Shown here: piece by piece, positions 34,723 through 36,931 of the stretch
Layout of the letters: every line of letters starts with the position of its first letter
Numbering within the stretch: the first letter of the stretch is position 1
Notes under the pieces: generated by a model
The model's database searches: none
The model's input: the letters and a program-made list of their open reading frames with translations, nothing else
What the model was told of the DNA's origin: nothing
DNA from: Verrucomicrobiota bacterium
GTDB taxonomy: Bacteria > Verrucomicrobiota > Verrucomicrobiia > Limisphaerales > UBA9464
DNA length: 38,299 nt
Reading direction: 5' to 3'
NCBI GenBank assembly: GCA_016871615.1
Contig: VHCX01000031.1
Location: 1-38,299, forward strand
Program-made: the position numbers and the translations under genes

Positions 34723-35484
34723 TCACAACCCGCTGGGATGGTCAATGAACTCCCATGCCACGCCGAACCGTCGGGCCAATTTCCCGGCGAGGGCCTGCAC
34801 CCCGAAGGTCTCGGTGGCATAGTGTCCCCCGTAAAACACATTGAGTCCCACCTGCTCCGCCAGCGCGTGGGTCCAATGAGGCCCCTCACCGGTCACGAAA
34901 CAATCCACCCCCTCGGCGGCCGCCTGGGCCAACTCGGCCCCGGCCCCCCCGGTGCAGATGCCCACCCGGCGACAGGTTGGGCTTCCCCCGGGCAACAGGA
35001 TCGGCGCGCGACCGAGCACCTCCCCAAGCCGGTGGCCCAACGCCTCACGGTCCAGGTTCGTCTCGCCCTGCCATCCGATCGGGCGACCCTCATGCTCGAA
35101 GAACGGCTTGAGCCGCCGCAACCCGATCCGTCGAGCCAAGAGCGCGGCGTTGCCCAGGGTCGGGTGGGCGTCCAGCGGCAAGTGCATCGAGTAGACGGCC
35201 AGATCGGCCTCGAACAGCGCCCGGATCAGGGCCATCCGGGGCCCGGTCCAGGGCCGGGTCTCGCCCCAGAACAGCCCATGGTGGACCACCATCAGGTCGG
35301 CACCGGCCGCGGCCGCCTTGCGCACGGTCGCCAGCGAGGCATCGACAGCCGCCGCGATGCGGTGAACCCGGCCCCGGTTCTCCACCTGCAGGCCGTTGTG
35401 CGCCCGATCGTAGTCCCGGAATCGCTCCGGCTGGAGCCACGACTGGCATTGCGCGACCAGGACCGCGAGATCGACGGACTTCAT
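34723..35484 (-). CDS. Nif3-like dinuclear metal-centre protein
   Basis: A 253-residue member of the Nif3/DUF34 family, whose members form a toroidal hexamer with two metals per subunit. Metal ligands are visible: the His pair in VVHHGLFW, an Asp in MHLPLDAH, and His and Glu in GGHYATETFG near the C-terminus. Family members have been proposed to act as GTP cyclohydrolase-like or repair enzymes, but no general function is settled. It has normal bacterial length without the middle PII-like insertion. ATG 35484 begins MKSVDLAVLVAQCQSWL, as in relatives. It is divergent from the sigma-factor gene. Confidence 0.92.
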   Translation of the reverse strand: MKSVDLAVLVAQCQSWLQPERFRDYDRAHNGLQVENRGRVHRIAAAVDASLATVRKAAAAGADLMVVHHGLFWGETRPWTGPRMALIRALFEADLAVYSMHLPLDAHPTLGNAALLARRIGLRRLKPFFEHEGRPIGWQGETNLDREALGHRLGEVLGRAPILLPGGSPTCRRVGICTGGAGAELAQAAAEGVDCFVTGEGPHWTHALAEQVGLNVFYGGHYATETFGVQALAGKLARRFGVAWEFIDHPSGL

Positions 35485-35595
35485 GCGCCGCAGGGAAGCA
35501 GCCGGGCCGCCCGTAAGGAAGATCCAAAAGAGCCCGTGCGGCCGACGCCCCCCTCGGGCATTGTAACCGAAGCTCCCACCGGGCGGTCGCCTGGA

Positions 35596-35622: not shown

Positions 35623-36210
35623 ATGGACGAACCGGTGCTGGACGTGACCGCCTGCGTGGAACGCGTGCGGGCGGGCGATGAGGATGCGGCTCGCGTCCTC
35701 ATGCGACATCTGCATGGGTTGATCGTCAAAATCGTCCGGTCGCACCTGCCCCGAAGAACCAGCGAGGAAGACCTCATCCAGGCCGTGTACGTCAAGGTGT
35801 TCACCCGAATCGACCAATACCGCGGAGCCGTGCCCTTCGAGCACTGGGTCTCCCGCGTGGCGGTCAACACCTGCCTCAACCAGATCGCCCACGAGAAGAT
35901 CCGCCCCGAGTGGCGTCTCTCCGACCTGAGCGAGGAGGAGGAGCAGGTGGTGCAGAACCTGGCCTCCACCGAAGGGGAACTCTCGCCCGAGGACGGCTTG
36001 GCATCCCGCGAACTCGTGCAAAAGATGCTGGCAAGGCTCAACCCGGAGGATCGCCTGGTCGTCACGCTGCTCCACCTCGAACAAAAGTCCGTCGAAGAAG
36101 TCCGGCAAGTCACCGGATGGAGCGCCGCGCTGGTCAAGGTCCGTGCCTTCCGAGCGCGGGCCAAGATGAAGAAGCACCTTTCCGAATTGATGGAGGAAGT
36201 GAACCGATGA
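35623..36210 (+). CDS. ECF-like sigma-70 family RNA polymerase sigma factor
   Basis: A 195-residue sigma factor with only regions 2 and 4. Region 2 spans residues about 25-95 and includes SEEDLIQAVYVKVFTRIDQY and FEHWVSRVAVNTCLNQ (core and -10 recognition). An acidic linker follows (LSDLSEEEEQVVQNLA). Region 4 (about 130-190) holds LNPEDRLVVTLLHLEQKSVEEV and the helix-turn-helix ending VRAFRARAKMKKHL. It directs RNA polymerase to a small regulon, typically for cell-surface stress. It is the first gene of a three-gene unit linked by ATGA overlaps, which points to control by the membrane protein encoded next. Confidence 0.9.
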   Translation: MDEPVLDVTACVERVRAGDEDAARVLMRHLHGLIVKIVRSHLPRRTSEEDLIQAVYVKVFTRIDQYRGAVPFEHWVSRVAVNTCLNQIAHEKIRPEWRLSDLSEEEEQVVQNLASTEGELSPEDGLASRELVQKMLARLNPEDRLVVTLLHLEQKSVEEVRQVTGWSAALVKVRAFRARAKMKKHLSELMEEVNR

Positions 36211-36515
36211 AGACCCATCCCCTCGATCGACTGCTCCGCTCGGCCGCCTCGGCCCGGAGGCCCGAATGTGCCGTATCCGCCGCCACGGCCCCGGTGCCCG
36301 ATCCCGTGCTTGAGCAACGGGTCCTGGCCACCGTCCGGCGCGCACGGGCCGATGCCGACAGTCTCGGATTGCTCGCCGTCCTCCGCTGGGGCGTGGCCTT
36401 TGCCGGATGCGTCGCCCTGTGCGCCATCCTGGTCGCGGTGGGAACCCCGGCCGGCCACTCCCTCGACGAAGCCTTCGCGGTGCCCGAACCCGAGACCTAC
36501 CTCGCCCTGCAATGA
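36207..36515 (+). CDS. Small single-helix membrane protein, candidate anti-sigma factor
   Basis: A 102-residue protein of no recognised family. The first 50 residues are soluble, basic and Ala-rich (HPLDRLLRSAASARRPE, then VLEQRVLATVRRARADAD). A hydrophobic helix follows at about 55-77 (VLRWGVAFAGCVALCAILVAV), and a short acidic tail ends PETYLALQ. A cytoplasmic N-terminal part, one membrane helix and a short outside tail fit an anti-sigma factor layout, though no zinc-binding HxxxCxxC motif is present. Its ATG overlaps the sigma stop and its own stop overlaps the next ATG, so all three proteins are made together. The assignment rests on gene order and topology only. Confidence 0.7.
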   Translation: MKTHPLDRLLRSAASARRPECAVSAATAPVPDPVLEQRVLATVRRARADADSLGLLAVLRWGVAFAGCVALCAILVAVGTPAGHSLDEAFAVPEPETYLALQ

Positions 36516-36931
36516 ACCCCCTCAGCCGCAACGCGATCATCGGCTACCTGGCCGCCACCTTCGTCGCGGGCGCGGTGGCGGGTGTCTTCGGGGCCAAGGC
36601 CTTCCCCGCCAAGCCGCCCCCCCGTCCTCCCAGGCCCAGCGGCGGCATGTCCGAGCGCATCCTGCAGCGATGGACCACCGACCTGCACCTCACGCCGGAG
36701 CAGGTCGGCAAGATCGAGCCCATCCTCAAGCGGTCCGAGACCGAGGTTTCCGGCATCCACCAGGAGACCGAACGGCGGATGAAGGCCTCCTTTGAGCGCA
36801 TGCACCAGGAGGTGACCCCGCTGCTCGACGAGGAGCAACGCCGCCTGCTCGATGAGCTCCGGAAGAAGATGGACCGCCGGAAGACCGACCGATCGCACGG
36901 CACCAACGCGCCAACGCCCCCTGCCCGTTGA
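36512..36931 (+). CDS. Spy/CpxP-like periplasmic protein, membrane-anchored
   Basis: A 139-residue protein with an N-terminal hydrophobic helix (residues 9-28, IIGYLAATFVAGAVAGVFGA), a Pro-rich spacer, and a long helical part. The helical part holds LHLTPEQVGKIEPILKRSE and VTPLLDEEQRRLLDEL, two LTxxQ-like repeats typical of Spy/CpxP and heavy-metal-resistance sensors. These bind unfolded proteins or metals in the periplasm and can damp stress signalling. The helix has no cleavage site that I can identify with confidence, so it may stay anchored. It is ATGA-coupled to the one-helix protein, which suggests that it feeds the envelope state to the sigma factor. Confidence 0.8.
   Translation: MNPLSRNAIIGYLAATFVAGAVAGVFGAKAFPAKPPPRPPRPSGGMSERILQRWTTDLHLTPEQVGKIEPILKRSETEVSGIHQETERRMKASFERMHQEVTPLLDEEQRRLLDELRKKMDRRKTDRSHGTNAPTPPAR

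Follow-up and report, generated by a model that had tools for sequence, protein, structure and literature searches.

An ECF sigma factor, a probable zinc-free anti-sigma factor and an anchored Spy-like protein form a conserved, CnrYXH-like operon in Verrucomicrobiota with a predicted MacAB-type efflux target

Operons that join a sigma factor to a small protein and a periplasmic partner are already known, among them CnrYXH, a sigma/anti-sigma/Spy operon in Phocaeicola, and a sigma/hypothetical/heavy-metal-sensor operon in Azospirillum. In CnrYXH of Cupriavidus metallidurans (pMOL28) the genes overlap in the order Y-X-H, the ECF sigma factor CnrH controls the adjacent cnrCBA genes for a metal RND pump, and CnrX is a membrane-anchored, helical periplasmic protein with GxxxG in its transmembrane stretch and a metal site made up of His, Glu and Met. 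Its anti-sigma factor CnrY, about 95 amino acids long, is described as zinc-free, with one transmembrane segment and two short cytosolic helices, and as belonging to class II (PMC4598750, PMC7406223); the first helix binds sigma4 and the second sigma2 (PMC7406223, PMC4598750). The CirY/CirZ/Spy genes of Phocaeicola vulgatus are reported as one co-transcribed, self-inducing operon of sigma factor, anti-sigma factor and Spy-like protein, the last being treated there as a chaperone, and the reported targets may act on peptidoglycan (PMC13114119). The RpoE8 operon of Azospirillum brasilense, mentioned in the cited passages only among upregulated genes, comprises by description a sigma factor, a hypothetical protein and a periplasmic heavy metal sensor, in that order (PMC12826043). 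Two further systems bear on parts of the locus described here, namely the class I pair RpoE/RseA and Caulobacter sigmaF, for which the cited text gives the promoter GTAACC-N16-CGAA and the six-transmembrane anti-sigma factor NrsF (PMC3511200).

The operon lies on the forward strand of a 38,299-nucleotide stretch of verrucomicrobial DNA, referred to as the window. It begins with a gene for a 195-amino-acid protein (35623-36210; ATG at 35623, TGA at 36208-36210), followed by the gene for a 102-amino-acid protein (Y; 36207-36515) and that for a 139-amino-acid protein (X; 36512-36931, where its stop codon ends). The first product is, judged by its profiles, a two-domain ECF sigma factor (Sigma70_r2 1.5e-10, Sigma70_r4_2 2.5e-9), closest among PDB profiles to RpoE (1or7, E 3.7e-21) and also matching CnrH (4cxf, E 7.3e-9). 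A preliminary description of this DNA had read the stretch as three genes joined by two ATGA overlaps and encoding a two-domain sigma factor, a single-helix protein devoid of a zinc anti-sigma motif and an anchored Spy/CpxP-like protein; its coordinates proved exact, both junctions within the trio are ATGA (36207-36210 and 36512-36515), and each assignment was borne out, Y having one hydrophobic helix and no HxxxCxxC, and X an N-terminal transmembrane segment with a Spy-like LTPEQ. Upstream, a 138-bp intergenic stretch holding a candidate promoter separates the sigma gene from a divergent NIF3-like gene (34723-35484, minus strand; DUF34_NIF3 2.4e-54), and the downstream neighbour, an esterase gene (BD-FAE 1.6e-31), is not coupled to X.

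The earlier proposal would have lost its footing had Y not stayed beside the sigma factor in relatives, and searches from both ends of the operon found that it does. A search with Y alone across 96 genomes gave a match in 39, the window's own included, and X adjoined Y at all 39 loci and the sigma gene did so at 38, two of these sigma genes being cut by contig ends and one having a broken frame; at the 39th locus (L026) the contig starts just before Y. A search of named genomes with the sigma factor alone retained 80 loci out of at least 548 relatives, most of which come from records whose titles name Verrucomicrobia or one of its groups, with X recognised by profile at 79 and Y at 73. The gene after sigma was an open reading frame of 94-122 amino acids with a transmembrane-like segment at 79/79 loci, a count that leaves out both entries for genome G010 (L005 and L047), in which the sigma frame breaks near the C-terminus and is matched to residue 183 only, through assembly error or mutation. 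In a sample of the phylum, 28 of 240 genomes (window included) had the sigma factor at E <= 1e-38, and all 28, two of them from another class, carried a Y-like frame and X; one such frame (L158) is 149 amino acids long. An order-wide sigma search matched 202 of 217 genomes, many of the matches being of a more distant paralog type.

Removal of near-duplicates left 196 loci, 30 found through Y and 166 found through sigma, the latter forming an unbiased subset. Y was recognised by size and transmembrane segment at 179 of the 196 and by profile at 145, and X by profile at 187; the corresponding counts in the unbiased subset were 151, 116 and 158. The four-base overlap between sigma and Y recurs at 136 of 179 loci, and that between Y and X at 121. 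The association of the three genes is far beyond chance. Within the window's own genome, Y and X were found by profile at two of the 11 PF08281 sigma loci, namely the window locus and a paralog on contig C41. Both partner genes are missing at six sigma paralogs of family f20 (L254, L263, L266, L267, L270, L273), two loci have no X by profile (L265, L238), and a few have odd downstream genes. The paralog on C41 is a second, diverged sigma-Y-X trio (L399, G000 contig C41:11000-16000; also L127 and L160), with a sigma match of 156 bits, a Y-like frame of 116-119 amino acids and X by profile at 5e-11. The operon also occurs in MAG records from the environment that bear the name Akkermansia muciniphila or Candidatus Solibacter (L061, L063, L067, L075, L072), titles that look mislabelled.

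Reading the regions upstream of the sigma genes revealed a shared sequence of the ECF promoter type, TGTAACC-N16/17-GGTC, which in the window appears as TGTAACC-N16-GGTC (35562-35588, plus strand), with a -35 element GTAACC at 35563-35568 and a -10 element GGTC at 35585-35588, 34 nt 5' of the sigma start codon. The pattern GTAACC-N14-19-GTC precedes the gene at 107 of the 128 loci where the sigma factor is close (at least 260 bits) and occurs in 12 of 3417 control windows. When widened to GTAAC[C/T]-N16/17-GTC, a form chosen after the misses had been read, it is found at 123 of the 128 close relatives against 6/3417 controls, indicating that the sigma-Y-X operon is very probably autoregulated; at more distant sigma factors it is present at 10/59 loci and at the most distant at 0/9. 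The GTAACT variant belongs mainly to the phylum sample and to records titled Opitutia, Opitutae and Opitutaceae. At many Opitutales-type loci (L093, L098, L099, L106, L111, L114 and others) the sigma promoter has GTAACT-N16/17-CGTC where others have GTAACC, in effect a natural test of how the promoter is recognised. The diverged second trio (L399) has no such promoter before its sigma gene; a GTAACC-N17-GTC site (L399:2304-2329) lies upstream of its Y start codon at a distance of 10-19 nt, through cross-talk or chance. The window promoter shares its -35 element and spacing with that of Caulobacter sigmaF and differs from it in the -10 element, here GTC, and in the type of anti-sigma factor.

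The same site points to targets beyond the operon. The strict motif is not enriched in the window's own genome (10 sites, the reversed pattern giving 29), but an exported open reading frame begins 10-80 nt after the site in 5/10 cases compared with 0/29 controls (Fisher p 4.4e-4, with a criterion set after the real sites had been seen). A gene that narrowly fails this criterion, P294, encodes an exported 248-amino-acid protein of no family and has the site before 16/16 of its orthologs in the genus. The main predicted target is an operon for a MacA adaptor (HlyD_D23 4.3e-23) followed by a MacB-type ATPase and an FtsX-type permease. ATPase and permease have MacB PRK10535 as best NCBIfam match, each below the equivalog cut-off, and the adaptor matches an RND_mfp subfamily best and MacA second. 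Within the genus the site precedes MacA directly or via P294 at 15 of 18 loci: 12 have a close site of their own, and at three more (G004, G013, G014) MacA lies directly behind a site-bearing P294; of the rest, G006 has only 262 nt of upstream sequence, G008 has a far site at -311 and G009 has none. Outside the genus, the 17 loci examined (from 24 matched genomes in the family's other genera) all carry the site, which stands before MacA in 12 of them at 75-216 nt and before a P294-MacA pair in five. Since only 3 of 26 MacA-like loci in distant families (3/21 genomes) carry it, while 172,333 control bases contain no match, the predicted MacA-MacB target is mainly a family-level feature, and a phylum-wide MacAB regulon was rejected. 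In two fragmented drafts (G017, G013) target genes carry sites, but the best sigma matches (E 1e-47 and 1.6e-43) are not close.

A second exported gene, P295, encodes a highly charged helical protein of 124-127 amino acids, the window genome's copy of which belongs to no family; the site lies 51-57 nt upstream in 9/19 genus genomes (L295 (G000:C17), L303, L313, L319, L323, L324, L327, L328, L329). Other sites in the window's own genome precede genes for a CotH-kinase/EF-hand exported protein, a prepilin-like protein and an exported glycine-rich protein (L298, L299, L292), and in two genus genomes (L309, L318) one lies 28-31 nt before a gene for an Rrf2-family (NsrR/RirA-like) regulator. Footprinting supports P294, MacA and P295 as targets, and the shared promoter sequences suggest that the sigma factor activates its own operon together with a MacAB-type pump and further exported proteins. 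Conserved linkage and probable autoregulation lend support to the compact envelope circuit envisaged in the preliminary description, and we consider it fairly probable that the operon is a self-amplifying envelope-stress switch, in which the sigma factor is held by Y, released via X, and then drives its own expression together with efflux and export.

The AlphaFold model of X (mean pLDDT 87.9) predicts a transmembrane helix at residues 6-29 (36527-36598) and further helices at 46-58, 62-104 and 107-129. The membrane helix carries G20xxxG24, of which residue 20 is small in 172/176 sequences and G24 is invariant (176/176), so that X resembles CnrX in being an anchored helical protein with GxxxG in its membrane stretch. 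Two motifs follow, LTPEQ at residues 60-64 (36689-36703), with Q64 in 175/176, and LDEEQ at 105-109 (36824-36838), where L105 is kept in 175/176, Q109 in 176/176 and T106 in 129/176 relatives; both LTxxQ motifs are present in 131/176 sequences under a pattern in which S may stand for T in either motif and D for the T of the second. Q64 and Q109 form, at the level of primary structure, the double LTxxQ signature of Spy/CpxP. The window's X itself scores 18.8 bits with LTXXQ, short of the Pfam threshold of 24.3, LTXXQ being matched by 12/27 family members at E <= 0.01, and the X profile matches Spy (3oeo) at E 3e-5 over the whole sequence, its two single stretches giving 0.14 and 0.15. The top PDB profile matches of X (5il7, 8r4b) were rejected as repeat artefacts. 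A Foldseek search with the model returned no solved fold at E <= 0.001, and the matches listed by VIA-align (best Z 5.2) were unrelated helical proteins, with Spy, CpxP and CnrX not among them, which is no evidence either way.

These Spy-type motifs, together with the lack of a conserved metal site, would also suit an X that acts as an effector chaperone, leaving sigma and Y as the switch, operated through Y's own transmembrane segment or tail or by proteolysis, and making X the most proximal target, as is Spy in CirY/CirZ/Spy. We regard this as possible though rather unlikely. The Phocaeicola Spy is reported to be strongly upregulated on deletion of the anti-sigma factor with which it is co-transcribed (PMC13114119). 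Speaking against a pure chaperone are the N-terminal membrane helix of X with its invariant G24 and small residue 20, unlike soluble Spy, and the roughly 25 periplasmic residues of Y, which give it little to sense with.

A sensor X, as favoured here and proposed in the preliminary description, need not sense metal. The three-component design is that of CnrYXH, X members match Metal_resist (PF13801) more often than any other family (14/27 at E <= 0.01, best 1.3e-7) and an efflux pump is predicted as the target, all of which would fit a CnrYXH/NccYXH-type system in which X binds a metal ion as CnrX does and the regulon exports metals. We nevertheless hold such a system to be very unlikely, because across 176 X sequences no listed column exceeds 36% His, Cys or Met apart from Met1, which leaves no conserved metal site of the CnrX kind, and because the order here is sigma-Y-X and the target is an unlinked operon of MacB/FtsX type rather than an adjacent RND pump. 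With the metal-site and gene-order tests failing and the Y-CnrY profile match not significant, the verrucomicrobial trio is best described as CnrYXH-like in layout rather than as a demonstrated member.

The remaining component, Y, matches no Pfam family (best E 0.29) and has no convincing match in NCBIfam or the PDB, one NCBIfam anti-sigma model reaching E 0.018 and 15 bits against a cut-off of 100. The zinc motif HxxxCxxC is found in none of the called Y frames (a frame was called in 190 of the 196 loci with room for one), and of 179 sequences 171 have one hydrophobic segment, seven have none above threshold and one has two. AlphaFold (mean pLDDT 75.5) predicts helices at residues 5-16 (36219-36254) and 33-49 (36303-36353), a transmembrane helix at 53-79 (36363-36443; the best 19-residue hydropathy window starts at residue 62) and a short helix at 95-101, the chain past the membrane helix amounting to about 25 residues that are presumably periplasmic. 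Across the 179 sequences helix 1 carries the block [L/W]6-x-R8-L9-L10-x-x-A13 (L9 87%, A13 94%) and helix 2 the block P32-[F/Y]-G-F-x-x-R38-V39-x-A41-x-W43 (R38 91%, V39 73%, A41 79%). By a moment test helix 1 is amphipathic (5/300 column permutations reach its value) and helix 2 is not (135/300); an amphipathic role for the C-terminal tail is unsupported (53/300).

Two short cytosolic helices before a single membrane segment constitute the layout of CnrY. In class II anti-sigma factors, such as CnrY and NepR, a pair of helices embraces sigma2 and sigma4. Profile-profile comparison (hhalign) with CnrY gave E 0.22 (A1) and 0.048 (A4), and comparison with RseA E 0.069, none of them significant. 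Matrices built on the two helix blocks both match CnrY and keep their order along the chain, that for helix 1 at residues 4-14 (p 0.039) and that for helix 2 at 31-44 (p 0.027), and among 608 unrelated windows of 46 amino acids four score as high with both matrices, none of them in the same order. In RseA the helix-2 matrix finds residues 51-64 (p 0.003) and the helix-1 matrix finds no match (p 0.91). These matrix tests on CnrY and RseA were picked after the proteins had been seen and are suggestive only. RseA 51-64 is the sigma2-binding fourth helix of that protein. The likeness to RpoE/RseA lies in the sigma profile and in Y helix 2; unlike that system, helix 1 is unmatched, Y is too short for a class I domain, and no RseB-type gene is present in the operon.

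Taken together, these features indicate that Y is probably a zinc-free anti-sigma factor that holds the sigma factor inactive. That Y might instead be a membrane adaptor or stabiliser, with sigma controlled otherwise, would accord with the fact that neither the comparisons with anti-sigma proteins nor the family searches gave Y a significant match, but we consider this extremely improbable given its position and gene overlap, its co-occurrence with sigma (151/166 sigma-found loci), its conserved cytosolic residues, the two-motif resemblance to CnrY and the want of any other anti-sigma candidate in the operon. The anti-sigma type had been called new in the preliminary description; this holds for the sequence family and not for the design, which is already that of CnrY. 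Mutual information between sigma and Y (MI-APC, 176 trios, Neff 128) exceeds neighbour shuffles, but so does that between X and Y and that between sigma and X, two proteins not expected to be in contact, and phylogeny therefore explains at least part of the signal. The top pairs link an acidic residue at sigma 151 to W at Y 6 or R at Y 14 and reflect only three independent changes; coevolution as proof of a sigma-Y contact was dropped as confounded by phylogeny and based on too few such changes.

Under the favoured reading of a self-amplifying switch with X as sensor, Y would keep the sigma factor at the membrane as long as there is no signal, helix 1 capping sigma4 and helix 2 sigma2 in the manner of CnrY and CnrH. 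X would be anchored beside Y via its GxxxG-bearing membrane helix, with its Spy-like hairpin in the periplasm keeping Y engaged. X would change in response to a signal in the periplasm, of which the likeliest kinds are unfolded or aggregated protein and membrane-active compounds, a metal being less likely, and Y would then let go of the sigma factor. Freed sigma would then transcribe from GTAAC[C/T]-N16/17-GTC promoters, that of its own operon providing feed-forward while fresh Y and X reset the switch; in this family of Verrucomicrobiota it would also drive the MacA-MacB-type efflux operon and other exported proteins.

One extension of this circuit may be offered as speculation. Among the 35 MacA orthologs of the family (L360-L377, L404-L420), 22 carry a Spy-like LTP[E/D]Q segment with a glycine-rich stretch right behind it; the segment is found in none of the 26 MacA-like loci of distant families, which mostly lack the promoter too. 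Conceivably, X senses and MacA captures for export the same class of ligand through a shared LTxxQ-type module, with Y a separately evolved minimal two-helix anti-sigma family that has spread through Verrucomicrobiota; we think such a sense-and-export circuit unlikely.

Among the matches listed in searches of the open-access literature, we recognised no paper on this operon of Verrucomicrobiota, nor any on MacAB controlled by an ECF sigma factor linked to Spy. Within those listings the verrucomicrobial family, the small anti-sigma sequence family, the promoter and the regulon with its MacAB-type pump seem to be new. For a phylum with little characterised sigma regulation, the operon provides a concrete stress circuit consisting of a sigma factor, a probable anti-sigma factor, a probable sensor, a promoter and targets. 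It also suggests CnrYXH to be a single case of a broader module of sigma factor, small anti-sigma factor and Spy-like protein in which metal sensing is not required, and it would link Spy-type sensing to a MacAB-type efflux pump.
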